From Olivibacter jilunii (lineage in GTDB: Bacteria > Bacteroidota > Bacteroidia > Sphingobacteriales > Sphingobacteriaceae), in assembly GCF_900607235.1 (NCBI RefSeq), contig NZ_LR027854.1, positions 1 through 64,000 of the forward strand: DNA of 64,000 nt, given 5' to 3'. Of this stretch, positions 1,391-25,098 are shown one piece after another. The position numbers and the translations under genes are program-made. The first letter of the stretch is position 1, and each line of letters begins with the position of its first letter. Under the pieces are notes generated by a model that saw nothing but the letters and a program-made list of their open reading frames with translations, was not told the DNA's origin and searched no databases.

Positions 1391-1429
1391 TTAAAAAAGA
1401 AAAACCCACTTATGTTTCGATAAGTGGGT
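1391..1429 (-). terminator. Rho-independent terminator closing the LytTR/RteC operon
   Basis: Perfect 9-bp stem ACCCACTTA (1404-1412) / TAAGTGGGT (1421-1429) with an 8-nt loop. On the minus strand the stem is followed by a T-rich run (complement of TTAAAAAAGAAAA, 1391-1403). It lies downstream of the lipoprotein gene at 1544-2077 and is the first good terminator after the run of minus-strand genes that starts at 6799. Confidence 0.8.
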
Positions 1430-1543
1430 AAAGTACTTATTGGCTTTTAACTTAGCTCTGCTTTTTTAGTTCCGCCGTTATACCGTCCGTAGGTTTTCGA
1501 TACAGGTAGGTGATCCGAGACTTTCTGTATCAAATCGGCAAGT

Positions 1544-2077
1544 TTATTTTTTCGTTAATATAATGCAGTCATTGTTCTTCCAAAGAATGGTGACTTTGTG
1601 TAATTCCTTTTTATTATAATCTCTTGCAGATAATTTAGAAAATGGAGTTACACCGGTAAAGTATGTTTCATATACTGCTTCATAGTGATTCTGCCCAATT
1701 TTCTTCAAGTCCGTTAACTTCTCTACAACAGCGTAGGCCATGACGACATTCTTTTGCGACTTCTTGTTTGAAGTGCCTACGCTGTATTTCCGACCCAAGT
1801 GCGTTAAAGCTGTGAGGGGGCTGCCCACATCTTTTATCTTCACATTTTTTATCGGCTCTAGAAGACTGTCATTCATTAGACCTGCTCGTTGGTATTTTGA
1901 TACCTCGATAGGATCTGACAGATAAAGTTCATACGTTAATGTATCGGTAACAGCGATTTTATCCAACATACAATCCAAAACAGCTTGTTTTTCCTTTCGC
2001 TTCGTATCACAGGAAGCCACAATGGTAAAAATCAAAGACACTACCGGTAAAAAAAGAGTTCTAATATAAGTTTTCAT
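1544..2077 (-). CDS. Predicted lipoprotein, unknown function
   Basis: A 177-residue protein with a signal sequence and lipobox ending in Cys23 (VASC), so probably anchored to the outer membrane or facing the periplasm. I recognise no domain. The mature part is rich in Lys, Asp and Thr and has no obvious repeats. It is the last gene of a minus-strand run: the RteC-like gene ends 42 bp upstream and a terminator follows about 115 bp downstream. That position suggests co-transcription with the kinase/regulator genes, but a role in that circuit is only inferred. Confidence 0.7.
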   Translation of the reverse strand: MKTYIRTLFLPVVSLIFTIVASCDTKRKEKQAVLDCMLDKIAVTDTLTYELYLSDPIEVSKYQRAGLMNDSLLEPIKNVKIKDVGSPLTALTHLGRKYSVGTSNKKSQKNVVMAYAVVEKLTDLKKIGQNHYEAVYETYFTGVTPFSKLSARDYNKKELHKVTILWKNNDCIILTKK

Positions 2078-2119
2078 AATTTATGGTATGATCAATCCAA
2101 CAATTGGAATATATTTCTA

Positions 2120-3292
2120 TCATTTTGTTTTATATTTCGCATTCAATAGATTCAACATGGAAATCAGAACCGCGGAGACCTTGTTCACAACGTCTTTATC
2201 GGGTCGGGTATACTTACTCCTTATGCTTCCAATAGAGATATTGTCTTTTCGTGTTGTGCCTACATGGTTGACCAGAAACTCGTTGAGGTCTTTCCGGTGC
2301 CTGACAATAACCACTCCCGTCTCGGTAAACAGGCGGAAAAGAAAAATCAGTTGTGAAACAGTCAGCGACACATGAAAATAATAAGGATAAACCGCCCGAC
2401 CTAGTTTACCGAATATAGTTGACCTATGGAGCTTTTCTTTCTTTTTTACGTACCTGATCTGCTCGATAACATATTCCATCAGCTGTGTCCTGATATCTTT
2501 CATACTATCATCATAACAGATATCCCGGCAGACAATAAATGCACTTAAATTCCTGCGATAGTCCAGCCATTCCCGCCGTTCCTGTAAATAAGTATCAACA
2601 CCCTGAATCTGGTTATGCATATAACGCACATAATAGGAAAAGAAAGAAGGATGGTTGAAATTGAGACGGAAGAGGTTCTGCAGTATATCCTGTCTGTATT
2701 CCACTGTTTTCCCCTTGTCGGTTATCCAACTGACCTCTGATGATACTATATCAAGATAAGAGAGATCCTGCCAGGTCATCTTTCTATCCATAACACCATT
2801 CTTTCCAACATTGAAAAATCCATTCAGAACATCAATTAATCCGGGATCTATTTTATTATGCTGCAGAGACTTTTTTATATTGAACCAGCGTTTGAGGATT
2901 TTGGTCATATAAAAGGGATATAATATTTGCGGGATAGCCATGTTCCGATCAAAATAATCGGGATAACGACTTTTGATCAATTCGATGAACCTGAACGAAC
3001 GTTTTATGACCACCCAAAGGACATACCTGTACTTTTTTCTCGCCTTTAAGGGCAGCTTGCCCTCATCGATGGTCTTTATCAGCAAGCCGGTCTTTTCCAA
3101 TAGTGAGGTAATATCCAATTGATAATGGTAAATGCAATTGTGGAGATTTTCCGTATCACTACCTTCGAGTACATGCCGGATCTTTCCATATAGCGCATCA
3201 AAATATTGTTTTATCGTTCTGATCTGTCCAAAATGGTCTATAACGCTATCTCCGGATAAAGCGACATTCTGATCACAAGTCAAATGTTCCAT
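2120..3292 (-). CDS. RteC-like regulatory protein
   Basis: A 390-residue, helix-rich soluble protein resembling the RteC group of Bacteroidetes mobile elements; in CTnDOT, RteC acts downstream of a two-component system to switch on excision. Visible marks are an NFNHPSFF segment near the middle and a C-terminal block (LTVSQLIFLFRLFTETGVV, then a conserved I-S-x-x-S-(I/L)-RS). A second gene in this window (29972-31120) has the matching marks NFNHAHF and LSVDQYGILLRAAD, so both belong to one family. It follows the kinase, LytTR regulator and 98-aa genes, and its start lies inside the preceding gene (20-bp overlap), pointing to coupled translation. The RteC assignment is from recognised pattern and context, not from a database match. 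Confidence 0.6.
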   Translation of the reverse strand: MEHLTCDQNVALSGDSVIDHFGQIRTIKQYFDALYGKIRHVLEGSDTENLHNCIYHYQLDITSLLEKTGLLIKTIDEGKLPLKARKKYRYVLWVVIKRSFRFIELIKSRYPDYFDRNMAIPQILYPFYMTKILKRWFNIKKSLQHNKIDPGLIDVLNGFFNVGKNGVMDRKMTWQDLSYLDIVSSEVSWITDKGKTVEYRQDILQNLFRLNFNHPSFFSYYVRYMHNQIQGVDTYLQERREWLDYRRNLSAFIVCRDICYDDSMKDIRTQLMEYVIEQIRYVKKKEKLHRSTIFGKLGRAVYPYYFHVSLTVSQLIFLFRLFTETGVVIVRHRKDLNEFLVNHVGTTRKDNISIGSIRSKYTRPDKDVVNKVSAVLISMLNLLNAKYKTK

Positions 3293-3569
3293 TTTCGTTT
3301 AGTTTTTCCTTATTAAGTCTCGTCCACCATTTCTCTAATATGTTGGTCATACTGGATTGGTATTTGTCAACCAATATATATCTTCTTGGTGCCCCATGAA
3401 AGATCATGTCGGAATCAGTATTTTCCAGACTTGAAAAATACTGCTGCAACGCCTGTTTATAGGAAGTGAAATTTTCCCTGTAACCTTCCGAAACCAGCAT
3501 CTCATCTATGAGTGCATGGAGATCTTCCGGACAGGCTAATTGGTTTGATCTGGCATATATTTTCATCAT
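3273..3569 (-). CDS. Conserved-looking 98-aa protein between LytTR regulator and RteC-like gene
   Basis: A small soluble protein, acidic in the first half and with a basic, Trp-containing end (ILEKWWTRLNKEKL). No signal peptide, membrane segment or known motif. It starts 4 bp after the LytTR gene and overlaps the RteC-like gene by 20 bp, so it is clearly part of the operon. The start could be either of two adjacent ATGs (3569 or 3566). It could be a partner or modulator of the RteC-like protein, but nothing in the sequence proves it. Confidence 0.65.
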   Translation of the reverse strand: MMKIYARSNQLACPEDLHALIDEMLVSEGYRENFTSYKQALQQYFSSLENTDSDMIFHGAPRRYILVDKYQSSMTNILEKWWTRLNKEKLNENGTFDL

Positions 3570-3573
3570 GGCA

Positions 3574-4281
3574 TTAGTGTGGATATAGCGTCTTCAAAAC
3601 ATAATCCTTATATGTTCTTCCGATTTTAAGTGCTTTTTTGTTTTTAAGTTTTACCAGTCCTTCATCGATGACATCAATCATTTTGATCGATACAATGTAA
3701 GATCGGTGTATACGTATAAATCCGTCGGTCACGCGTAGTTCCGGTTCAATATCATCCATACGCATGGCAGATACCACAAATTCATCGTGCGCATGGAATA
3801 CTACATCATTTCCCCTTGCCGCAATGTAAATGATGTCACTGAAATCTATTTTCTTCAGTTTGCCCTTGTGTTCAACCTGTACAAAGATGTAATCGTTTTT
3901 GACTACCGGTAGTTCCAATGTTCTGTGCAATACCCTTTCTTTCAGCTTTTCCACAGCTTTTTCAAAACGGTCAAACTGTACGGGCTTCAACAGGTAGTCC
4001 ACGGCATTAAGTTCAATGCTCTCGATCGCGAATTCAGTATAGGCCGTACACACGATCACCTTGATCGAAGGATCAAGCCTGCGCATAACCTCCACACCTG
4101 TCATTTCGTCCATTTCCATATCAAGGAAAATTGCATGCACCTTCAGCTCACCCGCCATTTCCAATCCTTCAACGGGTCTGGTCGTTGTTCCGATCAGAGC
4201 AATATCGGGCACCAGCTTCAGGTAACGGCTGATCTGTTCCAACGCCGCAGGTTCATCATCAATGGCTATACAGTTTATCAT
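3574..4281 (-). CDS. LytTR-family response regulator
   Basis: 235 residues. The receiver domain occupies about residues 1-120, with the acidic pair D8/D9, phospho-acceptor D54 (IFLDMEM), T79 and K99 (DYLLKP) all present, so it should be phosphorylatable. The LytTR DNA-binding domain covers about residues 130-233 (FVQVEHKGKLKKIDFSDIIY, then FIRIHRSYIV). It is encoded 6 bp after the LytS-type kinase, its obvious partner. LytTR regulators of the AgrA/ComE type bind direct repeats spaced 21-22 bp, and such repeats exist at 6938-6986 upstream of this operon, so autoregulation is a reasonable inference. Confidence 0.93.
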   Translation of the reverse strand: MINCIAIDDEPAALEQISRYLKLVPDIALIGTTTRPVEGLEMAGELKVHAIFLDMEMDEMTGVEVMRRLDPSIKVIVCTAYTEFAIESIELNAVDYLLKPVQFDRFEKAVEKLKERVLHRTLELPVVKNDYIFVQVEHKGKLKKIDFSDIIYIAARGNDVVFHAHDEFVVSAMRMDDIEPELRVTDGFIRIHRSYIVSIKMIDVIDEGLVKLKNKKALKIGRTYKDYVLKTLYPH

Positions 4282-4287
4282 AGCTGG

Positions 4288-5355
4288 TTATTTGGGATTA
4301 TCTAAAAAATCAATAAACAGCTCAACGGTATACGTATTGTCCTCCTCGGTGCGTGTCATTGTTGCCCGCTCTCTAAAAGCACCTTTTAACCGTCTTTCCA
4401 CATTCTTTAGCCCGATATGGTTGGCCGAGGTATCCAATTTTCCGGCGCCTCTTTTTTTATTGGTGCAGTAGAAATAGATTCTGTTACGGTCAACCGCGAT
4501 CTTGATCTGCAAAGGGTACATCGGATCTGACAGGTCACCATATTTAAAGGCATTTTCTACAAGCGTTATAAAGGACAATGGCGGGATTGAATGCAGATAG
4601 GGATCGCCATTGAATTCATAATGGAACTGTTTTCCGCCACCAAATCGCCTTCTGTTGATTTCCAGATAGATTTCAAGGTATTCGAGCTCTTTGTGTACCG
4701 GAACCAATTGTTTGCCCTTGATGGCATTGTCAAGCGAGTAGCGCATCATGATGGAAAGCAGGTAAATACTTTCGGCCAAAGACTTGGATAGAGCGAGTGC
4801 TTCGGTATAGATGAAATTAAGGGTGTTGTGCAGAAAGTGCGGATTGACCTGGGCCCTTAAAAAAGCCTGTTCATACTCGAACTTTTCACGCTCCATTTCG
4901 TAATGGGCCTTTTCCATCCGGCGCTTATACGCCAGATCGGCAAACCATTTGAGCACAAAGTACAGGATAATGGCATAGCTGGCGTATTTAATATAGGGAG
5001 AAAGTATGTTACGCAGGTACAGACTGATTGTAAACGGGACACCTTCATAGTACAGCCTGATCCCGAATAACGGGAACACATTATATACGGCAAGATAGCC
5101 AAGTGCTGCAAGGATCAAAAAGACCGATGCAATCATCAGGATGACGGTACCGAGATTGGTTTTCCTGTTTTCGATAAATTTAAAGAGAAAGAAGTTGCTG
5201 TAAAATACTATTGCGTACAGGAAACAGAGTCCGATAATGTGAAAATAATCGACATGGTCTATTTTGGGCAGGTTATAGATATATACAAACTGGATATAGA
5301 TTACCCAGCAGAGAATATTGAACAGGAATGGATGTTTACGGAAAAAAGCGACCAT
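4288..5355 (-). CDS. LytS/YehU-type sensor histidine kinase
   Basis: With ATG 5355 this is a 355-residue kinase. It has four predicted membrane segments (about 10-28, 38-58, 68-92, 118-140), a short coiled linker, the His_kinase motif NPHFLHN with the phospho-acceptor at H173, an N-box (LVENAFKYG) and a G-box (HIGLKNVERRL). There is no large periplasmic domain, so a signal would be sensed in or near the membrane, as in AgrC/ComD-like kinases. An upstream ATG at 5472, only 7 bp after the acyltransferase stop, would add 39 residues. I prefer 5355 because family members normally begin just before the first membrane segment, but the tight operon spacing favours 5472. Confidence 0.9.
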   Translation of the reverse strand: MVAFFRKHPFLFNILCWVIYIQFVYIYNLPKIDHVDYFHIIGLCFLYAIVFYSNFFLFKFIENRKTNLGTVILMIASVFLILAALGYLAVYNVFPLFGIRLYYEGVPFTISLYLRNILSPYIKYASYAIILYFVLKWFADLAYKRRMEKAHYEMEREKFEYEQAFLRAQVNPHFLHNTLNFIYTEALALSKSLAESIYLLSIMMRYSLDNAIKGKQLVPVHKELEYLEIYLEINRRRFGGGKQFHYEFNGDPYLHSIPPLSFITLVENAFKYGDLSDPMYPLQIKIAVDRNRIYFYCTNKKRGAGKLDTSANHIGLKNVERRLKGAFRERATMTRTEEDNTYTVELFIDFLDNPK

Positions 5356-5479
5356 ATCTTCCGGTTTTTTTGGTTCATCATACCACAATATAAAGATATT
5401 GGGCCACTTTCCATAAAAAATTGAACAAAGAAAATCATTTTCCCGTTCCTTAAAGGTTCCTATTGATTGCATGATGTTT

Positions 5480-6616
5480 TTATTGGATCTCTAAAACCAC
5501 CCTATTTGTTACAAGACTACCCATGCGGTTACGCTTCAGCATGGCTACGGTATAGGCATAGTCTTGCATGTAAATCCCTATTAATCTCTGATATAGCCAA
5601 CGTTCGATCTCAAAGCATTGGTAATTGCTTTTTCGGAAAAGAAAATACTTGCCGTAGACGGAGAAAAAGCTATAATCCTGCTCATTGAACCTTACCTGCC
5701 TTTTCTTCTTTCCCTCCGCTCGGATTGGCAAGGACTCCTGTTCGGGGATCGGGTTTGTAATTCCGGCGTGCTCGTGCAGGTATAGCCATGCCTCCCATTG
5801 CCACGGCTTTTTTTCCACCGCCTTTTCGAGGTACTTATAAATTCGTGAAATAGCCTGTTCTGCAAACACCTGTCTGTTCAGCTTTTTATCAGGCAAAATT
5901 GGCCGGAAAAAATCCAGGCAGGGTACGTACTTCCATTGCCTTGTAGAGATCACGGGATATATCGGTACTGAAGTGAGGTGGGAAATAAAGGCTGCTCCTG
6001 CCCTTGCCCTGATCTGCTGGTTCAGGAAAGGAATGGATAGCAGGTTATGGCCGGAGCGCTCATCGCCTGTTCCGGTATTGCCGTCAGCATAAATCAATAT
6101 GCTTTTTCCCTTTCTCAATTCTCTGGTTATTCTGAACAGGCTGTTGCTATCATTGGCGTCTATTAGGTCGAGGCCGAGCATCTGCCGTTGACGTTCATCG
6201 TATTTCCGGCTTGCCAGTTCATCCTCCCGTTGTAAACCGTCTTTTGAAACGAGCAGTACAAAGGATATACCGTTCTCTGCAAGATAATGCCCGATCATTC
6301 TGAAAGACCCGCTGTGAAAGGTGCAGATAATGCCTGGCCTATCTTTGATGTCCTGTAAGGTATAACCGTGGAAACGTACTTTAAGCTTATCCGGTAGGCC
6401 GGAAATATATTGCTCGGCATACGTCCGTTTCTGGTTCTCCAGCAGCCTTATGAAATTCGGTTCATGTTCCCGGTATTCAAGGGAAGGAAGGAAATTGTGG
6501 AAACTCGCGCTCACCACCTGAAATTTGTACCATAATGAACTGATCGGTGCGAAACGGTTATTTTCATGGCCGGAAGTAAAAAATCCGGCAGGTATTATTA
6601 ACTTGTCCTTAACCAT
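5480..6616 (-). CDS. LpxL/HtrB-like acyltransferase (divergent)
   Basis: About 378 residues resembling the lauroyl/myristoyl acyltransferase (LABLAT) fold: CTFHSGSFRMIG carries the catalytic-type His (H101 with the 6616 start), followed by IYADGNTGTG and AGAAFISHLTSVPIYPVI, the usual acceptor/acyl-site region. The family motif is HX4(D/E), but the acidic residue is Arg here, so either catalysis differs or activity is lost. I chose ATG 6616 (MVKDKLIIPAG) because ATG 6646 lies inside a stem-loop. It follows a 42-residue peptide gene and precedes the kinase, so its substrate may be that peptide rather than lipid A; this is inference. Possible alternatives are lipid A or another lipid acylation. 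Confidence 0.7.
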   Translation of the reverse strand: MVKDKLIIPAGFFTSGHENNRFAPISSLWYKFQVVSASFHNFLPSLEYREHEPNFIRLLENQKRTYAEQYISGLPDKLKVRFHGYTLQDIKDRPGIICTFHSGSFRMIGHYLAENGISFVLLVSKDGLQREDELASRKYDERQRQMLGLDLIDANDSNSLFRITRELRKGKSILIYADGNTGTGDERSGHNLLSIPFLNQQIRARAGAAFISHLTSVPIYPVISTRQWKYVPCLDFFRPILPDKKLNRQVFAEQAISRIYKYLEKAVEKKPWQWEAWLYLHEHAGITNPIPEQESLPIRAEGKKKRQVRFNEQDYSFFSVYGKYFLFRKSNYQCFEIERWLYQRLIGIYMQDYAYTVAMLKRNRMGSLVTNRVVLEIQ

Positions 6617-6630
6617 AACCTGAAAAATTG

Positions 6631-6656
6631 GCCCGACGGTATACATACCATCGGGC
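6631..6656 (-). terminator. Stem-loop terminator/attenuator between peptide gene and acyltransferase
   Basis: Arms GCCCGACGGTAT (6631-6642) and ATACCATCGGGC (6645-6656) pair over 12 bp with one wobble. Read on the minus strand it is followed by CAATTTTTC. It lies 15 bp after the stop of the 42-aa gene, so most transcripts would end here and some read through into the acyltransferase and kinase genes. This gives a high peptide-to-enzyme ratio, as is usual for precursor-peptide operons. Confidence 0.7.
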
Positions 6657-6670
6657 AGTGAAACTGTTTA

Positions 6671-6799
6671 CTAAAGCCCTTCATAAGGGATGCATTTATC
6701 TTTTTTTTCTGCTACTTCCATGAGAATTGCCAGTGCGGTCAGCGTAATCGGTGCGCTGAAAAGCCTGCCTGTCCATGATATTCCTCTTTTACGTTTCAT
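6671..6799 (-). CDS. 42-aa peptide, candidate signal or precursor peptide
   Basis: An ATG at 6799 opens a 42-codon frame with a basic N-terminus (MKRKRGISWTG), a hydrophobic stretch (SAPITLTALAILME), a charged linker and a C-terminus with a single Cys (KCIPYEGL). The layout resembles secreted or membrane-associated pheromone and modified-peptide precursors. It is the first gene of a minus-strand operon: an attenuator follows, then an acyltransferase, a LytS kinase and a LytTR regulator. Phased direct repeats of the LytTR type lie about 140-190 bp upstream. It was too short for standard ORF calling. No family is recognised; coding status rests on context, length and peptide-like composition. 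Confidence 0.6.
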   Translation of the reverse strand: MKRKRGISWTGRLFSAPITLTALAILMEVAEKKDKCIPYEGL

Positions 6800-6859
6800 T
6801 TTTTTGATATTTTTTAAAACCATTGCCTACTCTGATCAAGGGTTTTCGGTTACGCCCTA

Positions 6860-6873
6860 CTTATGGCCATAAG
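6860..6873. promoter_or_regulatory. 14-bp perfect palindrome upstream of peptide gene
   Basis: CTTATGGCCATAAG lies about 60 bp upstream of the 42-aa peptide start. A perfect palindrome in an otherwise gene-free stretch suggests a dimer-binding operator; the protein is unknown. Confidence 0.4.
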
Positions 6874-6937
6874 GTTCTCTTGGGATATCCGTTGTCGAAT
6901 TTCGGGTGCGGTATAGGTAATTTCAATCAACTTGGTT

Positions 6938-6986
6938 TGAATGACAGGATTCTATATGTGAATGTCGCTTTTCTACATGTGAATGT
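6938..6986 (-). promoter_or_regulatory. 21-bp phased direct repeats, likely LytTR regulator box
   Basis: Two 15-bp repeats, TCTATATGTGAATGT (6951-6965) and TCTACATGTGAATGT (6972-6986), match at 14 of 15 positions and start exactly 21 bp apart. A third partial copy sharing TGAATG (6938-6943) keeps the same 21-bp phase. On the minus strand the core reads ACATTCACAT. LytTR regulators (ComE, AgrA) bind such two-turn-spaced direct repeats. The box lies upstream of the peptide-kinase-regulator operon and is the best candidate site for the regulator at 3574-4281. Confidence 0.6.
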
Positions 6987-7044
6987 TTTGGACGGTTTTT
7001 TCGATCATTCACGGCACATATTCCGTCTATTTTTAGTAATACAT

Positions 7045-7102: not shown

Positions 7103-7623
7103 ATGGTAACAGGAGAACGAAATATTATCCACATGGATCAAGATGCCTTTTTCGTAGCAGTAGAGGTACGTAAAAACCCCAAATTGAAAGGCGCTCCCGT
7201 TATTATCGGTGGTACTTCCGATCGTGGTGTTTTGGCGAGTTGCAGTTATGAAGCACGTAAATATGGTGTACACTCTGCCATGCCTTCCCGTGTGGCCAGA
7301 CAGCTCTGCCCTCATGCCATTTTTATCAGGGGCAACATAGAAGAATACAGCAAGACCAGCCATGCGATAACGGATATACTTAAAGAAAAAGTACCGCTAT
7401 TGGAAAAAGCGTCTATTGACGAACATTATATAAATATGAGCGGGATGGAACGTTTTTTCGGTTGCATGAAATTTGCCCGTGAACTAAGGGAGAAAATCAT
7501 AAAGGAAACGCATCTGCCGATTTCTTTTGGCCTTTCTATTAAAAAGACTGTCAGTAAAATGGCTACAGACGAATGTAAGGCCCAGTGGTGAAAAACAGGT
7601 CGAGAAGCAAGCTGTCCGGCCCA
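7103..7623 (+). pseudogene. dinB: DNA polymerase IV, truncated and frameshifted
   Basis: The first 162 codons give the N-terminal palm and fingers of a Y-family polymerase, with catalytic motifs HMDQDAFF and SIDEHY intact. After ...SKMATDECKA the frame shifts and stops at 7591. The shifted frame continues as SGEKQVEKQAVRP, still polymerase-like, to about 7620. There the sequence switches to the 3' end of an Rpn-family gene. A normal Pol IV has 350-390 residues; the thumb and little-finger domains are lost, so it cannot work as a polymerase. Its promoter and operator are intact, so a truncated product may still be made when the system is induced. Confidence 0.85.
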
Positions 7624-7930: not shown

Positions 7931-8377
7931 TTATGGAAGTTTTAGTGCTGGGATAGGCTTAATCCCAGCCTGAACAACCGTTCTGAATTGTTTTGAAGTA
8001 GCCGGAATATTAAACTTTGACGACTGAATCCAATAAAAAGGATGTCTGCTACTTGCTTTTAACTTGTTAAGCTCTGGAGCTTGATGGTTTAACCAATCTT
8101 TCAACCATTGTAATTTCCGAATTACTGTAGAAACTTCTGTAGTATTCGCTGTATGAACTTCCACGAAGTAAATTTCATTTCTGTAGCAAAAGCAATAATC
8201 CCATCGATTGCTCTGAGGATACAGCGTGCGGGTGCAGTTGTCAATATCCAAGCTTCCTTCACATTTTGAATTATCTGCCAAAGAAATTTTCCGACTATTG
8301 CCGCCTAAGGCTTTTAATCCTTTCTGGAAACACATACGAATATCAGGTGTTGCGGTAACAGCTTTTTTGAATATCAT
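7931..8377 (-). CDS. Partner protein of OLD-like ATPase, possible nuclease
   Basis: With ATG 8377 a 148-residue soluble protein beginning MIFKKAVTATPD; a TTG at 8401 is an alternative start. The central part (CEGSLDIDNCTR, NRWDYCFCYRNEIYFVEVH) resembles a small alpha/beta core. D60 followed by E73-V-H75 could be a PD-(D/E)XK-like active site, but I cannot confirm this. It follows the AAA ATPase gene at 8398-9555 by about 20 bp in the same direction, so the two form one transcription unit. I take it for the second subunit of a two-gene module, possibly a defence effector. No experimentally known name is recognised. Confidence 0.7.
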   Translation of the reverse strand: MIFKKAVTATPDIRMCFQKGLKALGGNSRKISLADNSKCEGSLDIDNCTRTLYPQSNRWDYCFCYRNEIYFVEVHTANTTEVSTVIRKLQWLKDWLNHQAPELNKLKASSRHPFYWIQSSKFNIPATSKQFRTVVQAGIKPIPALKLP

Positions 8378-8397
8378 AATAGATTGTGTTGGTAAAT

Positions 8398-9555
8398 TCA
8401 AGCTTCTTGTGACATTACCCTTGAGATGATATCGGAGGCCTTTGAACTAAAGGAAGACAAGCCTCCCCATTCGGCTACGGAAGGATCTGCATTGCCAGCG
8501 TCCAAAGTAGATATGTCCTTAATATCGACCTTATCATTTACCCTATCGAAATAATAGGTCTGTATCGTTTTTGTTCTAAGGATACCCTTAAAAAGTTCGT
8601 TTACACTTTCCGATAGAGGAAGATTAAACAGTTCAGCCAATAAACTGTCCCCAGCCTTTGATTTCTTCAGATATTGGAAAGCCCATGCAAACTCCAGCAA
8701 TACAGGCGAATGGGTCGAAATGATTACCTTATAATCTCGCGAAAGTAGATCGATCACCTGTAAGATTACAGACTCAATAGCTTGCGGATGCAACCCCATT
8801 TCCGGTTCTTCGATGATTACATATTTAACATGTTCCTTTCGGCCTGCTAATGATGACGGACAGAGCCAGTAAAAGCTCAATAATAACGGCATAAACTCCT
8901 TTTGTCCAGCACTCCATGCCATGTAAGGAATACTTGAACCGCTGACGTTCAATTTGAAGCGCTTTTTAACACGCTGATCCAAAGTAATTTTTCCATCGTG
9001 AAAAATACTATCATTAAAAGAATCCCTTAATGGTGTTCTTAACCGTTGATTTTGCGGAAAAATGACATCACCTGAAGGGCCTGTACTACTTTCCAGAAAA
9101 TGGCGTAATGTTTCACTGAAATGCCGGAGCACATAAGGCACAGAGTCTTCATAGTCCGTGAAGAAACGTGGCCATCCGTTCTGAAGGCATACCACCCGTT
9201 GAGCTGGAATATAAAATAAGGTTTCTGCTGCAGGTTTCAATTTATCGTTTACCTCTGGCAATAATTCGGCAAGCGGGCAATCTTTTCCATCAAACTCTAT
9301 AGTAGAGTCATCACCCAATATGCGGGACATACCTTCACCAAAGTACCGATCCAATATTGAGTGGACGTCCGTTCCCCAAACGTATCCATATTGCTCGATA
9401 GTCTGTCTGATCTGCTCCTTATCAACCAATAATTTTATCAATTGGAGTAAAATACCTTTACCACTTGCATGTGGTCCGACAAGGACTGTTAAACTTCCAA
9501 AATTGACATCAGCGTTGCCGATAGGTCCCAGTTTGTTTATCTTGATATTCTCCAT
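8398..9555 (-). CDS. AAA (OLD/ABC-type) ATPase
   Basis: 385 residues of the AAA_21/OLD-like ABC ATPase type: Walker A GPHASGKG (G27-K33), a signature-like WSAGQKEF (~213), Walker B YVIIEEPEMG (~247) and an H-loop ISTHSP (~279). It lacks the C-terminal TOPRIM nuclease of true OLD proteins; the effector may instead be the small protein encoded next (7931-8377). Such split ATPase-effector pairs are common among phage-defence systems, and the location in the accessory region of an ICE fits. Divergent from the Rpn-family gene at 9739. Function in defence is inferred. Confidence 0.85.
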   Translation of the reverse strand: MENIKINKLGPIGNADVNFGSLTVLVGPHASGKGILLQLIKLLVDKEQIRQTIEQYGYVWGTDVHSILDRYFGEGMSRILGDDSTIEFDGKDCPLAELLPEVNDKLKPAAETLFYIPAQRVVCLQNGWPRFFTDYEDSVPYVLRHFSETLRHFLESSTGPSGDVIFPQNQRLRTPLRDSFNDSIFHDGKITLDQRVKKRFKLNVSGSSIPYMAWSAGQKEFMPLLLSFYWLCPSSLAGRKEHVKYVIIEEPEMGLHPQAIESVILQVIDLLSRDYKVIISTHSPVLLEFAWAFQYLKKSKAGDSLLAELFNLPLSESVNELFKGILRTKTIQTYYFDRVNDKVDIKDISTLDAGNADPSVAEWGGLSSFSSKASDIISRVMSQEA

Positions 9556-12901: not shown

Positions 12902-15871
12902 GTGAAAAATCTCTTATTCTCTTTAGTTATCCTCTTTTCTACTCACATTGTTTGTAGTCAGATGCATTCTATAACAGGGCGTGTACACTCGGCGGTTGAT
13001 AGTTCTTCGCTGTCGGGGGCTACAATACAAATAAACGCCGCTTCGACGAAAACGGACCGGAACGGAAATTTTACTATAAATACAGACAAAAGTAAGGGAG
13101 TATTAAATGTCACCTTTCTAGGTTTTCAAAGTAAGGAAGTTTCTTTTGATATCTCATCAACTGCATACTATACCATAAGTCTTTCGCCCCAAGAAAACAC
13201 ATTGGATGAAGCTGTTGTAATCGGCTATGGTGAGACAAGCAGACGCTTTAACACGGGTAGTGTCTCCTCAATCACCGCTAAAGAAATTGGGTCACAACCG
13301 GTGACGAATGTTCTATCTGCACTATCAGGAAGAATGCCAGGGGTATTCGTGCAAACAACAAATGGCTTGCCAGGAGGCAATATCAATATCCAAATCCGTG
13401 GAAAAGGGTCCATTGCCGCTGGGACGGCGCCGTTGTATATCATTGACGGGGTGCCGTATGACGGAGGAACGATTAATGAAGGTTCAAGATTGGGGATAGA
13501 AAATATAGCAGGATCTATTAGCCCATTGAATAATTTAAATCCAAACGATATAGAATCCATAACGATTTTAAAGGATGCAGATGCAACAGCTATATATGGA
13601 AGTAGAGGTACGAATGGTGTTATATTAATAACGACAAAAAGGGGCGAGGCTGGTAACACGAAATTTGATGTAAATTTTGTTCAGGGTTATAACAAAATTG
13701 CTAATCAACCTAGATTGCTGAATGTTCAGGACTATTTGCAAATTCGTAGAGAAGCGTTTCAAAATGATAGTCTTATACCTTCCTCCGATCCGACCTCTCC
13801 TAATTATGCGCCAGATTTAACAATATGGGACACAACAAGAACTACGGATTGGACTGATTATATTATAGGTAATGTAGGCAATTTCAGCTCCATACAAACA
13901 AGTCTTTCAGGTGGAACCGATAAGATAAATTTTCTTATAAGTGCCAACTACAGGAAAGAAAGTACCATATTAATTGGTAATTCCAGCTTTCGTAGAGGCG
14001 GATTTAATTCTAGTTTACATTATAGGTCTACAGACCAAAAATTCTCAATCAATCTTTCTAACAACTATAGTCAAAATTTAACAAAACTACCAAATCCTGT
14101 TACCAATCTCTCATCAAATATATTGCTGCCACCGCATTATCCAATTTATAATGACGATAATAGCTATAACTGGTATGCTGGTACGAATATATTAGCTGAA
14201 CAAAACGCTCAAAGTAAAAACAGTACTAACAACTTTATTAATAATATAAATCTGAACTATAGTCTAATTGAAGGACTAGACTTAAAGTTAAGTGGAGGGT
14301 ATACAAGGACAAACTACGATCAAGTTCAAAAATTCCCTTCAATATCCTTATATCCCGGTACGGTCAACTATACGAATTTCGGAATCAACTCAAGTGAATC
14401 TATTATTGTTGAGCCGCAGATCACTTATCAAGCAAAGCTCAATAAAACATTGTTCACTATTTTAGGTGGTGGCACATACCAAAATAGATCTTCCAAAGCA
14501 CAATTTATTAATGCCGGTAATTTTAGCGTTGAAAGTTTAATGGAAAATCTGGCCTCTGCTGGTGAAATCAATGCTAGAACCAATAATTATACACAGTATA
14601 AATATTTATCATTCTTCAGCAGGGTTACTTTTAATATTGAAGACCGATATATTCTTAATGGAACTTTAAGAAGAGACGGATCTTCAAGATTTGGTCCTGG
14701 CAATAAATTTGGAAATTTTGGTTCTATCGGTGCAGCATGGCTAATAAGTAATGAGAAATTTTTGAAATGGGCATTGCCTATTGTTAGCTTCGCTAAAATA
14801 CGGGCAAGTTATGGTACCACAGGCAATGACCAAATAAGCGACTACCAGTACCTTTCGACTTATGGGAGTTCTGGATCAACATTATATCAAGGATTACCGA
14901 GACTTGTTCCAAGCCGTATTGCCAACGCAAATTTTCGATGGGAAAATACCAGAAAAATAGAATTAGCAATGGAGCTTGGCTTTTTCCAAGACCGTGTCCT
15001 TATAAATACCAATTATTTTTTAAATCAAAGTAGAGATCAACTGGTCTCATATAGTATACCACAAATAACCGGTTTCTCCTCCTATCTTGCCAATCTTCCT
15101 GCTGTCATCCAAAATAAAGGTTGGGAAATTGAACTTAATGCCAAAATAATTCAAAATAGAAATTTCAATTGGTCTGGAATCTTTAACATCACACTACCTA
15201 AAAATCAATTGAAGTCATTTGAAAATTTTGAAACATCGAGTTATGCGATGCAATATGAACTTGGCTATGATATTAATAGATTTTACGGTTATAAATTTCT
15301 TGGAGTAGATCCTGAATCAGGTAATCCTCTGTACGCTGGTGAAGATGGAAAAGAATCTGCCACACCTTATTTCTATTATACACTTGGCAAATCCACTCCA
15401 GATTTTTACGGAGGTTTTGGAAATACTTTAAGCTTCAAAGAGTTTCAATTTGACATTTTCTTCCAATTTACAAAGCAGGTGAGTAAAGGGGGCTTGCAGT
15501 ATTACCCTGGAGTTTTCGTGTATAATAACTATAGATTAACAACCGATAGATGGAATGAAATTGGAGAAAAAACAGATGTTCCAAAAGCAACAACACTTTG
15601 GGATTCCTATTATAGTGCTTCATCTGCAAATATATTCAACGCGTCCTTTATAAGGCTAAAGAACGTCTCCTTTTCTTACAGTCTTCCATCAGAAATTTCG
15701 AATAAAATTAAAGTTAAAGGGATTAAAATTTTATTTCAGGGACAAAATCTTATTACATTTTGGGATAAAAACGCTGCAATTCTCGACCCTGAGTCGGGAG
15801 CGTTAACAGCATCTTCAAAAAACATTCCTCCAGTAAAATCTTACGCTTTAGGATTACAGCTAACTTTTTAA
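12902..15871 (+). CDS. SusC/RagA-family TonB-linked outer-membrane transporter (set 1)
   Basis: 989 residues. Start is GTG 12902, preceded by AGAAAGGAG; it yields a clean signal peptide (MKNLLFSLVILFSTHIVCS), whereas the next ATG would remove it. Order: signal peptide, carboxypeptidase-D-like beta-sandwich (about 24-100), plug with the SusC signature ATAIYGSRGTNGVI, then a 22-strand barrel ending in a C-terminal aromatic. Unlike the second susC here it lacks an N-terminal STN domain, so it does not signal to an anti-sigma factor. It imports an unknown substrate with the SusD partner that follows 5 bp downstream. Confidence 0.95.
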   Translation: MKNLLFSLVILFSTHIVCSQMHSITGRVHSAVDSSSLSGATIQINAASTKTDRNGNFTINTDKSKGVLNVTFLGFQSKEVSFDISSTAYYTISLSPQENTLDEAVVIGYGETSRRFNTGSVSSITAKEIGSQPVTNVLSALSGRMPGVFVQTTNGLPGGNINIQIRGKGSIAAGTAPLYIIDGVPYDGGTINEGSRLGIENIAGSISPLNNLNPNDIESITILKDADATAIYGSRGTNGVILITTKRGEAGNTKFDVNFVQGYNKIANQPRLLNVQDYLQIRREAFQNDSLIPSSDPTSPNYAPDLTIWDTTRTTDWTDYIIGNVGNFSSIQTSLSGGTDKINFLISANYRKESTILIGNSSFRRGGFNSSLHYRSTDQKFSINLSNNYSQNLTKLPNPVTNLSSNILLPPHYPIYNDDNSYNWYAGTNILAEQNAQSKNSTNNFINNINLNYSLIEGLDLKLSGGYTRTNYDQVQKFPSISLYPGTVNYTNFGINSSESIIVEPQITYQAKLNKTLFTILGGGTYQNRSSKAQFINAGNFSVESLMENLASAGEINARTNNYTQYKYLSFFSRVTFNIEDRYILNGTLRRDGSSRFGPGNKFGNFGSIGAAWLISNEKFLKWALPIVSFAKIRASYGTTGNDQISDYQYLSTYGSSGSTLYQGLPRLVPSRIANANFRWENTRKIELAMELGFFQDRVLINTNYFLNQSRDQLVSYSIPQITGFSSYLANLPAVIQNKGWEIELNAKIIQNRNFNWSGIFNITLPKNQLKSFENFETSSYAMQYELGYDINRFYGYKFLGVDPESGNPLYAGEDGKESATPYFYYTLGKSTPDFYGGFGNTLSFKEFQFDIFFQFTKQVSKGGLQYYPGVFVYNNYRLTTDRWNEIGEKTDVPKATTLWDSYYSASSANIFNASFIRLKNVSFSYSLPSEISNKIKVKGIKILFQGQNLITFWDKNAAILDPESGALTASSKNIPPVKSYALGLQLTF

Positions 15872-15876
15872 TAAAA

Positions 15877-17250
15877 ATGAAAAAGCAAAAAATATCTAAA
15901 CTTCCCGTGGTTTTAAGTTCTCTTATTACCATTTGCTCCTGCTCCAATCTGATTGAGGTACCACCGCCTCAAAATCAACTTGAGGCCGAGATAGTGTTCT
16001 CAGATTCATCGTCCGCTGTTACTGCCCTAACAAGTGTTTATAGTTATTTTAGCACTTCAGTTCACGGTGCAAGTAAGCATTTGGCACTGTATGTAGATGA
16101 CTATGTTTATACTTCTTCGTCTACACCTATTCTAGAATTTAGTCAAAGTAAATTGTCCGTAAATAATAGTAACAATGAAAGTCTTTGGAGCAATTTGTTT
16201 TTTATTATTTATCAATGTAATTCTATTTTAGAAAATATTGATAGTGAATCAACTATATCTCTTCTCTTTAAACAAAGGCTAACCAGTGAAGCTAAATTTT
16301 TAAGAGCTTACGCATATTTCTATCTGATAAATCTTTATGAAAACATTCCTTTAATACTTACTACAGATGTTTCTGAAAATTCCGTTGTCCGACAATCAGA
16401 ACCCCAACTAGTATATGAACAGATAACGAAAGATTTATTAGATGCTAAGAAAGGTTTAGCTGAGGAATATGATGGAAATGACAAGGTTCGGGCCAACAGG
16501 TGGGCTGCTGCCGCATTGCTTTCGCGAGTATATCTGTTTCAGGAACAGTGGCAATTAGCAGAGCAGCAAGCCTCTGAGATTATCAATTCAAAAATATATT
16601 CTTTAACGTCTTCTTTGGATGAGGTGTTTCTAGCGAATAGTAAGGAAGCGATTCTACAGTTTTGGACACAAAACGGATATATTAGCGATGCTGCCCAAAT
16701 TATTCCTTCATCCAGTTCCAATATACCAACATACACATTAAATCCGGCTTTATATGAAGCGTTTGATATAAGCGATAAAAGGAGAGCAAGTTGGATCAAC
16801 ACAAATACCATTATATCAGGTGATGAAACTGCTAGTTATCACTATTTATTTAAGTATAAAAACAGGACAAACAATACCACAAAAACAGAATATCTTATGG
16901 CTTTAAGATTAAGTGAACAATATCTGACACGTGCTGAAGCAAGAGCCCACCAAAACAATCTTATCGGAGCTTTAGACGATATTAACACAATAAGAACAAG
17001 AGCAGGGTTATCTATTTTTCAGAGCAGTGGAGCGATTGCCGAATACCTGGAAGAAATTATTCATGAAAGAAGATTAGAATTTTTTGGAGAATGGGGTCAT
17101 CGCTTTATGGACTTAAAACGGATTGGAAAGTTAGACGAAATAATCGGTTCAACGAAATCTACATGGCGAAATGGCCTGTCCGATGTATTTCCCATTCCAC
17201 AAAACGAAATAATATATAACCGTAATTTAAGACAAAACAATGGTTACTAA
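15877..17250 (+). CDS. SusD/RagB-family outer-membrane lipoprotein (set 1)
   Basis: 457 residues. Lipoprotein signal with a Cys-containing lipobox near residue 22 (TICSC), TPR-like helices (SEAKFLRAYAYFYLINLYE), and the C-terminal SusD domain (EIIHERRLEFFGEWGHRFMDLKR). The lid that captures ligand for the SusC channel. It starts 5 bp after SusC, and its 3' end overlaps the next gene by 11 bp, so the three genes are one operon. Substrate cannot be deduced; no glycan-degrading enzymes are present nearby. Confidence 0.95.
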   Translation: MKKQKISKLPVVLSSLITICSCSNLIEVPPPQNQLEAEIVFSDSSSAVTALTSVYSYFSTSVHGASKHLALYVDDYVYTSSSTPILEFSQSKLSVNNSNNESLWSNLFFIIYQCNSILENIDSESTISLLFKQRLTSEAKFLRAYAYFYLINLYENIPLILTTDVSENSVVRQSEPQLVYEQITKDLLDAKKGLAEEYDGNDKVRANRWAAAALLSRVYLFQEQWQLAEQQASEIINSKIYSLTSSLDEVFLANSKEAILQFWTQNGYISDAAQIIPSSSSNIPTYTLNPALYEAFDISDKRRASWINTNTIISGDETASYHYLFKYKNRTNNTTKTEYLMALRLSEQYLTRAEARAHQNNLIGALDDINTIRTRAGLSIFQSSGAIAEYLEEIIHERRLEFFGEWGHRFMDLKRIGKLDEIIGSTKSTWRNGLSDVFPIPQNEIIYNRNLRQNNGY

Positions 17251-18610
17251 ATCTAAAAACAGCACTTTTTTATTAATAATAAAGCACTCAGTAGTGATAA
17301 TATTGCTCTTAGCTTCCATTAAGAGCTTCGGTCAAAATGAATTAAAAATAGGCGATCAAGTTCCTGATTTAGAAATAAACAATATTATAAATCAGTCCAA
17401 AAATAAGCTGCAACTAAAGGACCTTTATAAAAACGGTTTACTGATTATTAATTTTTGGGCAACTTGGTGCGCTCCCTGCCTAAAAGAACTTACACTTTTA
17501 GATTCGATAAAGAAAAAACAGCCTCAAAAGTTTAATGTATTATCGGTCTCTTACGAAAAATCGCAAAGCATTTCTACTTTTCTATCCTCAAAAAGAAATC
17601 AGGATATAAAGACTTCCAGTCTTAATGTTGAAACTGATGATACATTGTTAACAAAATATTTTCCCCATAAATTTCTTCCGCACAATATATGGATCGACAG
17701 TCTTGGCATTGTTAGAGCTATTACAGGCGGGAAAGATATTACCGAGGCTAATGTGCTTAATTTCTACAACGAAAGCCGTAATCTAGCAGCAAATATAAAA
17801 AAGGACAATATGACTTTTAATCCACTTGAAACTTTTCATCTTGGCGACTCATTATTTAAATATAGATCGATAATAACTCCACGTTTTAATGGTATAAATG
17901 GTGGAATGTCAGTTCGATCTTCTGGAGGACTAACAGATAGATTTTTTCAATATAACGGAACCATTACTCAGTTATATTGGGCTGCATACAGCTTTTTTAA
18001 TCCAAGAATTAAACATAATCTAATAAAAGTTCAAACGCAGGACTCTTTAAAGTTCTATTGGCCTGTCGGAAAGAATAAGCATCTGTTGGCTGGTTCAAAG
18101 TATGATGATAAAGATGAATGGGCAAAAGAAAACACCTTTTGCTATGAGCTGTCCCTTGACCAGCCTGTTCCAGATTCTGTTTTCAGAAACTATATGTTTA
18201 ACGACTTAGAACGATTCTTTAAGATTTCTGTCTCATTTGACATGACTAAAATCCCTTGCTGGGTAGTTTCAATGGATAAAAAGAACAATAAGCTTCTATC
18301 AACTGCCTCTTCTAATGAGGCTATGATCTCTTTTTCGGCCAGTAAAATGATAGTACAAAATAGCACGTTAGAAGAACTGCTTAAATTTCTGTCAATGAAT
18401 TTTCAAAAACTCGATGAACCTTTTATAAACGAAACGGCAGACGCATGTCAAACACGTCTGAACTTTGTCCTGGATTTTTCCTCAGATACTGATTTTGCCG
18501 AGAAAAAAATCTTCACTTTAGAAGCAGTCTTCAAAAAACTTCGGCGACTGGGCCTTTCATTTCGAAAAGAAATGAGAACCTATCCTATATTAGTATTAAA
18601 GGATACCTAG
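17240..18610 (+). CDS. TlpA-like thioredoxin-fold protein (set 1)
   Basis: 456 residues. An N-terminal membrane anchor or signal (about 12-30) leads to a TlpA/AhpC-TSA domain with the redox motif WCAPC (C77, C80) and a cis-Pro region FLPHNIWID. The C-terminal ~260 residues have no recognised motif and are shared in layout with the second TlpA-like protein (26431-27789). It would reduce or isomerise disulfides in the periplasm. Linkage to SusCD suggests a substrate, or a system component, containing disulfides. Its ATG overlaps the end of the susD gene. Confidence 0.88.
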   Translation: MVTKSKNSTFLLIIKHSVVIILLLASIKSFGQNELKIGDQVPDLEINNIINQSKNKLQLKDLYKNGLLIINFWATWCAPCLKELTLLDSIKKKQPQKFNVLSVSYEKSQSISTFLSSKRNQDIKTSSLNVETDDTLLTKYFPHKFLPHNIWIDSLGIVRAITGGKDITEANVLNFYNESRNLAANIKKDNMTFNPLETFHLGDSLFKYRSIITPRFNGINGGMSVRSSGGLTDRFFQYNGTITQLYWAAYSFFNPRIKHNLIKVQTQDSLKFYWPVGKNKHLLAGSKYDDKDEWAKENTFCYELSLDQPVPDSVFRNYMFNDLERFFKISVSFDMTKIPCWVVSMDKKNNKLLSTASSNEAMISFSASKMIVQNSTLEELLKFLSMNFQKLDEPFINETADACQTRLNFVLDFSSDTDFAEKKIFTLEAVFKKLRRLGLSFRKEMRTYPILVLKDT

Positions 18611-18624
18611 AATATCTATTTAAA

Positions 18625-18655
18625 CTATTGGAAGTACCAAGTGTACTTCCAATAG
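18625..18655. terminator. Bidirectional stem-loop between convergent genes
   Basis: Perfect 13-bp inverted repeat CTATTGGAAGTAC (18625-18637) / GTACTTCCAATAG (18643-18655) with a 5-nt loop, placed between the end of TlpA set 1 and the end of the DUF6520 gene. No long T-run, so termination is likely but not certain. Confidence 0.65.
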
Positions 18656-18666
18656 TCACACAACTA

Positions 18667-18954
18667 CTATTCCTCTTCGTTGTAATAAATAGTTGTCGAT
18701 ACCCCTGGAGCAGTTCCGGTAGCACAAATAGACTCCGTTTCATCGTTACATCCAAGATCTTCTCGGACGTTAGCTTCAGTATCATTGAATGGTGAACCAA
18801 CGGGTTGCTGTGTTTCCCGGTCATATTTTTGCCAACTCAATGTCTGTTGCTGTGAACTTGTTATTCTCTGAGCAATTTCAGTTGCACCTGCTATGCTTCC
18901 TCCGAGGATAAATGCAGTAAGCAGGATTTTTGGTTTTAAACTTAGCTTTTTCAT
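18667..18954 (-). CDS. DUF6520-type small secreted protein
   Basis: 95 residues: MKKLSLKPKILLTAF signal sequence, short mature part and two Cys near the C-terminus (C69, C77) followed by a low-complexity acidic tail. This is the pattern of DUF6520 proteins, which in Bacteroidetes often lie beside MauE and TlpA genes. The paired Cys could form a disulfide made or broken by those partners. Function of the family is unknown; it may be a secreted peptide or a structural surface protein. It is encoded 35 bp downstream of the MauE gene on the same strand. Confidence 0.75.
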   Translation of the reverse strand: MKKLSLKPKILLTAFILGGSIAGATEIAQRITSSQQQTLSWQKYDRETQQPVGSPFNDTEANVREDLGCNDETESICATGTAPGVSTTIYYNEEE

Positions 18955-18989
18955 GATACTAAAATTTAAGAGTTAAACAATATATTGAA

Positions 18990-19520
18990 TTAAGATTTGC
19001 TTATTTGTGCGTGCATTTTCTTATACCAGTTAGTAGATAACAACAAGAGTACGATTACACTGGCATTAAAGATGAGATGCGTTAGCCACCCCATAGAGCT
19101 TATAATACCTCCACAGGTACACGGTAGATGAATACCTGTCTTGATGGACACGATCTTCATCCATGAAATGTATATCTCGAACAGTATCATCAACACCAGA
19201 GAAGCTCGATAGCCGAAATAACGGGTGTTTTCAAAATAGAGCATAGCGGCCAAAGCCAGCTCCACCCAAGGCAAAACCCTCCCAATTATAGGCGCCACTG
19301 TTTTGATCAGGGGTACAGGTGCCAACCGCATTTGGAACACAAATTTCTCGTAATCTAACAACTTGCTGATACCGGTATAGGCGAACAGCAGGATAACAAA
19401 TCCAGCTGTACCTACCATGATAATCTCTCGCCAGTTCCATGAGCGAGCCGTATCCCAATATCGTTGGGTCTTACTTTTGCTTTCTCCTTGACCTAGATCT
19501 TGTAAAACTGTTACCTTCAT
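18990..19520 (-). CDS. MauE/DoxX-like redox membrane protein
   Basis: 176 residues with four predicted membrane helices (about 32-52, 80-97, 103-123, 147-167) after a charged cytoplasmic N-terminus. LPCTCGG carries a CxC pair between helices 3 and 4. MauE-type proteins support disulfide formation in exported proteins. Together with DUF6520 (downstream) and the TlpA-like proteins on both sides this forms a periplasmic thiol-redox neighbourhood. The divergent sigma factor gene begins 316 bp away. Confidence 0.85.
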   Translation of the reverse strand: MKVTVLQDLGQGESKSKTQRYWDTARSWNWREIIMVGTAGFVILLFAYTGISKLLDYEKFVFQMRLAPVPLIKTVAPIIGRVLPWVELALAAMLYFENTRYFGYRASLVLMILFEIYISWMKIVSIKTGIHLPCTCGGIISSMGWLTHLIFNASVIVLLLLSTNWYKKMHAQISKS

Positions 19521-19570
19521 TGCTATTGGTTTGATATAGTAAAGTTCGGTAACAAGTAAATGATTTTTTG

Positions 19571-19649
19571 TGTCGGTTTTCGAAAACTTTTGTCAAAAAT
19601 GAGACATGGATTGTCGTAAAAGACACAAGTTTCTGTCGTAAAACCGACA
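19571..19649. promoter_or_regulatory. Cluster of GTC-centred repeats between MauE and sigma genes
   Basis: In a 316-bp gap without genes: TGTCGTAAAA occurs at 19612-19621 and 19634-19643 (22 bp apart), and TGTCGGTTTT (19571-19580) is the inverse of AAAACCGACA (19640-19649). Short GTC...GAC inverted pairs repeat through the block. This looks like a binding region for a regulator of the MauE and/or sigma operon. Confidence 0.4.
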
Positions 19650-19836
19650 AAAACTAAAATGGCAAATTCATTGAAATTTACCTCTTGATACCATAGGACC
19701 GTTTATTGAGTCTGCCACAATAGTTGCCGTAAAGAAAATTGTTTTTTCAAGCATGGAAAATTTATGACTAATTTTTTGACAAAAATAAATTGGCTAATGA
19801 TCCTTTTTACATATATTTTTATAGATTAGCTTTTAA

Positions 19837-20442
19837 ATGCATATCCTAACCGCAAAATATATCGCATTAAACGACCAAGAACTCTGTTCTCTTTTAAAAA
19901 AAGAGGATTATGGTGCCTTTTCTGAAATCTATAACCGAAATTGGGAAAAAATACTTCGCTATGTGAGCAAGGTAATCTCAATTGATAGCGAAGATGCACA
20001 AGATGTAGTTCAAGAGATTTTTCTTTCCCTGTGGAAAAGAAAAAATGAGATACAGATCGATAATCTGATATCTTGGTTATATGCCGCAGCAAGGAAACAA
20101 GCGCTTTTTCACTTACGCACAAACAGTAATAGAAAGAAATACCTGCTCTCATTAAGTGAAAAACTATCGGAAATTTCCGATTCGCTCAATGAACAACTGG
20201 CGGAAAGTGAACTGGCTGCTCTCATAGACCGTGAAATCGACAAATTACCAGCGAAAATGCGCGAAATTTTTATTCTTAGCAGAAAAGAGAATCTATCTTA
20301 CAAGGAGATTGCCGAAAAGCTGGGTATATCTGACAAAACGGTAAAGAAGCAGATCAATAACACGCTCAAGAAGTTCAGGATTAAGATCGATGCGGATAGT
20401 CTTGGAAGTCTTATACTCGTTGCTTTTTTACTGCATCCGTAG
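19837..20442 (+). CDS. ECF RNA polymerase sigma factor (FecI-like)
   Basis: 201 residues. Sigma-70 region 2 (about 25-95: YNRNWEKILRYVSK...EDAQDVVQEIFLSLW) and region 4 (about 130-185: LPAKMREIFILSRKENLSYKEIAEKLGIS, helix-turn-helix). Belongs to the Bacteroidetes FecI-like ECF group. Followed by a FecR anti-sigma gene and a SusC gene with an STN domain, the standard trans-envelope relay: ligand at SusC frees the sigma factor to express the operon. No promoter could be confidently placed. Confidence 0.95.
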   Translation: MHILTAKYIALNDQELCSLLKKEDYGAFSEIYNRNWEKILRYVSKVISIDSEDAQDVVQEIFLSLWKRKNEIQIDNLISWLYAAARKQALFHLRTNSNRKKYLLSLSEKLSEISDSLNEQLAESELAALIDREIDKLPAKMREIFILSRKENLSYKEIAEKLGISDKTVKKQINNTLKKFRIKIDADSLGSLILVAFLLHP

Positions 20443-20525
20443 ATTCGGGAAACCTATTCAATTTTTTTTATTTTTATCTACTACCTCAATCCCTGAACTG
20501 CAACAAGGAAGTATAAGGCCATATT

Positions 20526-21683: not shown

Positions 21684-21793
21684 AAGACTTCTTTTACGAT
21701 AAAAACCGGAAGTGCTGACAACACTACCGGTTCATCGGTCAATCGCAGACATTCATTTCACTAAATATTTAACAACTAACCTAACACAAATGT

Positions 21794-25087: not shown

Positions 25088-25098
25088 CTCCTGACACA

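Follow-up and report, generated by a model that had tools for sequence, protein, structure and literature searches.

A conserved peptide, acyltransferase and LytS/LytTR gene unit in Sphingobacteriaceae: a candidate acylated-peptide autoinducer circuit with copies on integrative and conjugative elements

Background

The described systems closest to the genes reported here are ComQXPA of Bacillus and AgrBDCA of Staphylococcus and other bacteria, in which a peptide signal is paired with a membrane kinase and a regulator. We analyzed a DNA stretch of 64,000 nucleotides (hereafter the window), which is the start of contig C7 (NZ_LR027854.1) of a 6.7-Mb Olivibacter jilunii genome and is part of an integrative and conjugative element (ICE) with CTnDOT-type transfer genes. 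A minus-strand gene run at 1391-6990 begins with a gene for a 42-amino-acid (aa) peptide, an LpxL-like acyltransferase, a LytS-type histidine kinase and a LytTR response regulator. These first four genes probably constitute a self-contained autoinducer circuit, in which LytS/LytTR would sense an acylated peptide. Sequence comparison, presented below, shows the shared gene set, the conservation of the peptide and of catalytic residues, the geometry of the operator, and the co-divergence of the tail with sensor and enzyme.

As in ComQXPA, four genes encode a short precursor with a C-terminal signal, a (here predicted) lipid-adding enzyme, a membrane kinase and a regulator, and the tail, enzyme and sensor are variable. 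However, ComQ is an isoprenyl transferase, whereas the present enzyme matches PF03279 and has an LpxM/PatA fold; ComX is prenylated on tryptophan, whereas the conserved residue here is cysteine, with tryptophan in some tails only; and a PF06580 kinase and a LytTR regulator stand in place of a ComP-type kinase and a ComA-type regulator of the LuxR-family helix-turn-helix (HTH) kind. With Agr, the unit shares a core cysteine approximately five residues before the predicted end of the signal (assuming that the mature C terminus is the end of the frame), a multi-helix membrane sensor, mosaic divergence and a LytTR regulator, here accompanied by direct repeats of 21-bp period before the peptide gene. 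Agr precursors, in contrast, carry a charged C-terminal recognition tail after the core, whereas the present frame ends with the core; the kinase here is of the PF06580 type; and no match to AgrB (PF04647) was found in the genome, which has the LpxL-like enzyme instead. The unit most likely works like ComQXPA or Agr, and it has the defining feature set of neither.

A lipid on a ribosomal peptide is also known in Bacteroidota from the DAG-RiPPs, a class of ribosomally synthesized and post-translationally modified peptides (RiPPs). In the accessible part of their description, these are made by an MNIO enzyme and a lipoprotein pathway, and that part mentions neither quorum sensing nor a pheromone nor LytTR (PMC12636315). 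Compared with the pathway as given there, the present unit has a single LpxL-like enzyme and lacks a lipoprotein signal. A 2022 census of two-component quorum-sensing systems lists Agr and ComXQPA for groups other than Bacteroidetes (PMC8895600). The initial annotation of the window knew of no such system in Bacteroidetes; likewise, our literature search, whose coverage largely excluded subscription journals and preprints, found no account of a peptide-acyltransferase-LytS/LytTR system.

Results and discussion

A conserved four-gene unit

Relatives of the unit were gathered by a whole-genome search with the acyltransferase alone, so the peptide played no part in choosing loci. Acyltransferase relatives are present in 83 of 400 genomes of the family, often several per genome, and the 120 stretches retrieved contain 124 enzyme genes, from Olivibacter, Sphingobacterium, Parapedobacter and others. 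(Loci, genomes and contigs are designated by L, G and C numbers.) LytS lies at most 400 bases after the enzyme in 106 of the 124 cases, LytTR no more than 2 kb after it in 107, and 103 have the two together, so that the check for an equivalent gene order elsewhere, as proposed in the initial annotation, has a positive result. Judged by this gene order, peptide, acyltransferase and LytS/LytTR are a conserved unit. Plasmid and viral copies of the cassette were searched for, and none were found.

The peptide gene of the window (MKRKRGISWTGRLFSAPITLTALAILMEVAEKKDKCIPYEGL; 6671-6799, minus strand) has the predicted core CIPYEGL and no Pfam match. An alternative upstream ATG at 6823 would extend it to 50 aa, but homologues in L161 and L165 support the shorter start. 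Frames of 30-75 aa that end in [KR]C plus 4-8 residues occur at most 450 bases upstream of the enzyme in 83 of 123 cases, whereas the same search found 6 in antisense, 4.8 in shuffled and 5 in distant upstream sequence. With 83/123 against 5-6 in three controls, the window gene is, by this measure, not a chance frame. The peptide is thus conserved at the amino-acid level beside homologous enzyme and kinase genes; the initial annotation would have been refuted by absence of the frame there, which is not what we found.

Most loci outside the 83 carry related cysteine-tailed frames, for example in a clade with C[DE]xxLPG. A precursor of 28-75 aa could be assigned in 108 loci (with some doubt in a few cases), nearly always with a single cysteine near the end. 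Tails include CIPYEGL (the window and two sister ICEs), CNIVFPF, CPIKTI, CWPSSF, CFFRTI and CDIFII. When 21 close pairs of peptide frames are pooled, pN is 0.106 versus a pS of 0.404, and dN/dS in the group of the window peptide is 0.12-0.37 (pairs with unsaturated dS); on these ratios, the frames are under purifying selection. The core also scores 93% versus 71% for the leader, but these pairs were picked by similar tails, which is partly circular, and the comparison is not used as support.

Some loci have unusual precursors or arrangements. In L197 (genome G655, upstream of 6991, minus strand), the precursor stops right after EKC, and the tail CWVEIP is missing; this tail is present in L187, a close relative with a regulator 99% and a sensor 95% alike. 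L189 (G649:C16:14000-33000) has four tandem enzyme copies with tails CNFYYV, CNLYYL and CNLNYF, and no LytS was recognized adjoining them.

Co-divergence of tail, enzyme and sensor

Co-divergence was computed over 93 complete sets, in which the phospho-acceptor residues are kept almost throughout (LytS His in 92/93, LytTR Asp in 93/93). Tail distances correlate with those of the enzyme (0.60), the sensor half of LytS (0.56) and the kinase core (0.47). Given the kinase core, the partial correlations of the tail are 0.43 with the enzyme and 0.35 with the sensor (permutation p 0.001 each, values that are nominal because the statistics take non-independent pairs as independent), whereas the partial correlation of tail and kinase core given the sensor is 0.03. 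Among pairs with a kinase identity of 40-92%, sensor identity lags behind that of the kinase core by 0.145 when tails differ and by 0.052 when they are alike; no such tail-linked lag was found for the enzyme in these pairs, where the gap is not significant. An example is L143 compared with L150, which have regulators 80% and kinases 83% identical, sensors and enzymes only 50% and 49% identical, and different tails, an Agr-like mosaic.

The tail thus appears to co-diverge with the LytS sensor half and the enzyme beyond what the kinase core accounts for, although shared ancestry may account for part of this signal. Joint divergence of signal, maturation enzyme and sensor domain is what an autoinducer circuit calls for, and it is found here with that ancestry not fully removed. 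The suggestion of the initial annotation that the kinase senses the peptide gains from the co-variation of the tail with both partners.

Proposed circuit

The acylation and its site, the cleavage, export, sensing and autoinduction that we infer would proceed as follows. The 42-aa precursor, which has no signal peptide, would be modified by the LpxL-like enzyme, with a fatty acyl group most likely attached to the sole conserved cysteine or to a neighboring position. Cleavage would then release the last 7-9 residues (K|CIPYEGL), which would reach the periplasm or the medium, and LytS would detect the lipopeptide through its four membrane helices. The kinase would phosphorylate LytTR, which would bind the 21-bp-spaced repeats before the peptide gene and boost transcription not only of the entire operon (autoinduction) but also of the genes that follow; in the window, the 98-aa and 390-aa proteins carried by the ICE are probably part of this output. 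The hairpin behind the peptide gene would cause precursor output to exceed enzyme output.

Several observations weigh against this proposal. The conserved unit was found to contain neither an exporter nor a leader protease. The precursors of L099 and L138 have no cysteine, and those of L197 and L200 lack most of the tail. The matrix correlations leave some shared ancestry in, and their pairs are not independent. Finally, acyltransfer activity is made uncertain by the loss of a motif residue from most of the enzymes, as described next.

The acyltransferase and its relatives

The enzyme gene (5480-6646, minus strand; PF03279, E 1.8e-7) encodes a predicted peptide acyltransferase of the LPLAT fold. 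Because a hairpin at 6631-6656 overlaps its first ATG, the start is probably at 6616. The best structural matches of an AlphaFold model (pLDDT 74) are LpxM (5kn7, E 4e-11) and PatA, which indicates that the enzyme has an acyltransferase fold. It shares with LpxL/LpxM and PatA the fold, the catalytic His and an invariant Asp-Gly, and His111 and Asp188 are kept in 93/93 complete sets. It differs from them in that the Glu of the HX4D/E motif is lost in 90/93 enzymes (kept in 3/93), and in that it is encoded beside a peptide gene and LytS/LytTR instead of genes for lipid A or phosphatidylinositol mannosides (PIM). Reading by eye, we regard the small C-terminal domain (residues 325-377; three strands and a helix) as a candidate peptide-binding RiPP recognition element (RRE).

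Distant relatives of the enzyme occur in L173, L193 and L194 beside short precursor-like genes and radical SAM enzymes or M50 proteases. In all three, the RiPP-like precursors have leaders with an EELExRLELA-like motif, and M50-type proteases are encoded nearby; L193 and L194 also have radical SAM enzymes. The LpxL-like enzymes and precursors of these loci possibly represent an undescribed class of acylated RiPPs. In L191 and L192, from two genomes of another family, the enzyme family and one or more short peptide genes are divergent from a gene for a membrane-bound LytTR protein, beyond which lies a LuxR-type response regulator. The occurrence of enzyme relatives at RiPP-like genes is a link between the family and ribosomal peptides that does not depend on LytS.

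These RiPP-type surroundings, with genes for radical SAM enzymes and M50 proteases, together with the frequent control of bacteriocin genes by two-component systems, lend some weight to another explanation. In it, the peptide would be an exported RiPP, antimicrobial or otherwise, to which the enzyme adds a lipid tail, and the role of LytS/LytTR would be confined to regulating peptide production upon a different cue. We consider this unlikely, given that the unit has no conserved immunity gene or exporter, that the divergence of the tail is coupled to that of the sensor half beyond the kinase core, and that the tails are mostly just 5-9 residues long.

The sensor and passage of the signal

The LytS-type kinase (4288-5472, minus strand; PF06580, 8.7e-19) has four predicted membrane helices, and its model shows no large extracytoplasmic domain. 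It is followed by the LytTR response regulator (3574-4281, minus strand; PF00072 and PF04397). The absence of such a domain, of an exporter and of a signal peptide would also suit a peptide that never leaves the cell but, once acylated and bound to the membrane, acts on LytS as a ligand or inhibitor, and so serves as a private regulator and not as an intercellular signal. However, diverse tails with matching sensors resemble the specificity groups of a released signal. Moreover, of 121 loci, 89 have a SusC-like and 88 a SusD-like outer-membrane transporter gene, located 3-4.4 kb upstream on the same strand and almost never downstream. An intracellular ligand is therefore a rather improbable reading, even less favored than an exported RiPP.

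SusC/SusD pairs include peptide importers (RagAB), and it is a fair guess, by analogy, that the pairs near the cassettes carry the signal of the proposed autoinducer circuit across the outer membrane. TlpA-like and MauE genes are also common around cassettes. The window ICE holds all of these gene kinds at 12902-27789; at 12902-19520, the SusC, SusD and TlpA-like genes are on the plus strand, opposite to the cassette and separated from it, and MauE is on the minus strand. These are the kinds found upstream of most other cassettes.

Control region and leader RNA

Direct repeats spaced by 21 bp are the geometry of LytTR operators (AgrA-type sites). The predicted operator of the window (6935-6986, minus strand) has three direct repeats with this spacing (ACATTCACAT / ACATTCACAT / GTCATTCAAA). 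In 90 non-redundant upstream regions, 10-base repeats with at most one mismatch have a period of 21 in 25 regions and of 20 in 10, compared with 0-4 regions for each other period from 12 to 44. Genome-wide, the operator box of the window exceeds chance only at the three ICE cassettes; a regulon elsewhere in the genome was considered and rejected, with the remaining matches at control level.

The 5' leader of the peptide mRNA contains a DUF805b RNA element (Rfam RF02914; 6824-6859, minus strand), which also precedes the cassettes of L161, L162 and L165. A DUF805b-like sequence pattern is also present in L100 and L147, from another genus.

Between the peptide and acyltransferase genes lies the terminator-like hairpin already mentioned (6631-6656, minus strand), with 11 bp followed by CAATTTTT, and a second one of 10 bp followed by TTTTCTTTTT closes the gene run (1404-1429, minus strand); both had been claimed in the initial annotation, as attenuator and end terminator. 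Although a hairpin follows the peptide in 37/108 loci (versus 2.8 in shuffles) and the peptide end is the most conserved part among close relatives, it is very improbable that the frame is merely a leader peptide at whose conserved end ribosomes stall to set the hairpin and hence enzyme and kinase expression, since arrest peptides have a fixed end whereas this end varies by clade and co-varies with enzyme and sensor, the frames are under purifying selection as proteins, and approximately two thirds of loci have no recognizable hairpin.

Relationship to ICEs

The element in the window has the hallmarks of a CTnDOT-type ICE, including TraG, TraJ, TraM, a serine-type recombinase and insertion at a tRNA. 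Its backbone (38360-63192, plus strand), which also includes DUF4134 (TraE), ends at tRNA-Leu(caa) (63112-63192), and its left end lies beyond the window. Regulation of CTnDOT responds to tetracycline and, to our knowledge, involves no peptide gene or acyltransferase. As with RteA/RteB/RteC of CTnDOT, two-component regulators and RteC occur near Bacteroidota ICE transfer genes, and in the sister ICEs on contigs C12 and C9 a genuine RteC lies just downstream of the cassette; L161:5330-6196 matches the RteC profile (PF09357). The 390-aa protein of the window, by contrast, is not RteC. It had been described as RteC-like in the initial annotation, but it has no Pfam match, is missed by PF09357, and belongs to a family that does not align with RteC (probability <1% in profile comparison).

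That annotation also presented the system as an ICE switch, which is not supported as a general description: conjugation genes are within reach at only 7 of 121 cassettes, or at least 7, since the stretches span approximately 7 kb on each side and the count is a lower bound. The seven are the window, two more in its genome, two in G608, L096 and L157, and five of them are Olivibacter ICE copies. For the window and sister ICEs, a link of the cassette to transfer is plausible, and control of conjugation by the cassette in the window ICE is possible, although no operator was found at transfer genes.

Where comparisons were made, the identity of these ICEs to the window is mostly 30-60% in the transfer genes. 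Nevertheless, all four Olivibacter ICEs with a retained peptide have the identical tail CIPYEGL/F. A common tail despite diverged transfer genes makes it possible that rival elements use one signal, as far as the tails indicate. L166, the second cassette of the Olivibacter genome G608 (G608:C1:5659000-5676000), lacks the peptide gene and the beginning of the enzyme gene; an IS-transposase-like end lies there, at approximately 8370-8560, and LytS, LytTR and transfer genes are present. L166 is possibly a receiver-only ICE.

Other genes of the cassette and its surroundings

Every frame of the run is present on the minus strand in the order initially described, and the acyltransferase, LytS and LytTR identifications agree with their Pfam matches. 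After LytTR come a 98-aa protein (3273-3569; no Pfam name), which resembles the N-terminal part of the following 390-aa protein, then that protein (2120-3292), and finally a lipoprotein-like protein of 177 aa (1544-2077; no Pfam name), for which no relative was found at the equivalent place in other cassettes. Relatives have a single frame of approximately 400 aa in place of the separate 98-aa and 390-aa frames, and the 98-aa protein represents either a partial duplication or a split of that frame.

More generally, the slot after LytTR is occupied by the unnamed family of the 390-aa protein (195-400 aa), which follows LytTR in many cassettes, by a genuine RteC (9 loci, in some behind the unnamed family), or by a small HTH protein. 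A block of DUF6266, a CHAP hydrolase, a small membrane protein and DUF5675 recurs downstream of LytTR (for example, L118, L107 and L198), and these are possible output genes of the circuit. On the other side of the cassette, a truncated UmuC/DinB-type polymerase gene adjoins it (7103-7591, plus strand), and an 86% identical piece occupies the equivalent place in L162.

Conclusions

We tentatively propose, as a real possibility that we hold with somewhat less than even confidence, that these loci are the first peptide quorum-sensing family of the Gram-negative Bacteroidota. The family would use fatty-acylated ribosomal peptides made by a new, LpxL-derived class of acyltransferases, and would comprise dozens of specificity groups, some of them on ICEs that have the common signal CIPYEGL and may be able to sense each other. 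If true, Bacteroidota would have a diversified peptide language, RiPP chemistry would gain an extra acyltransferase class, and there would be a handle on how ICEs of Bacteroidota time their transfer.

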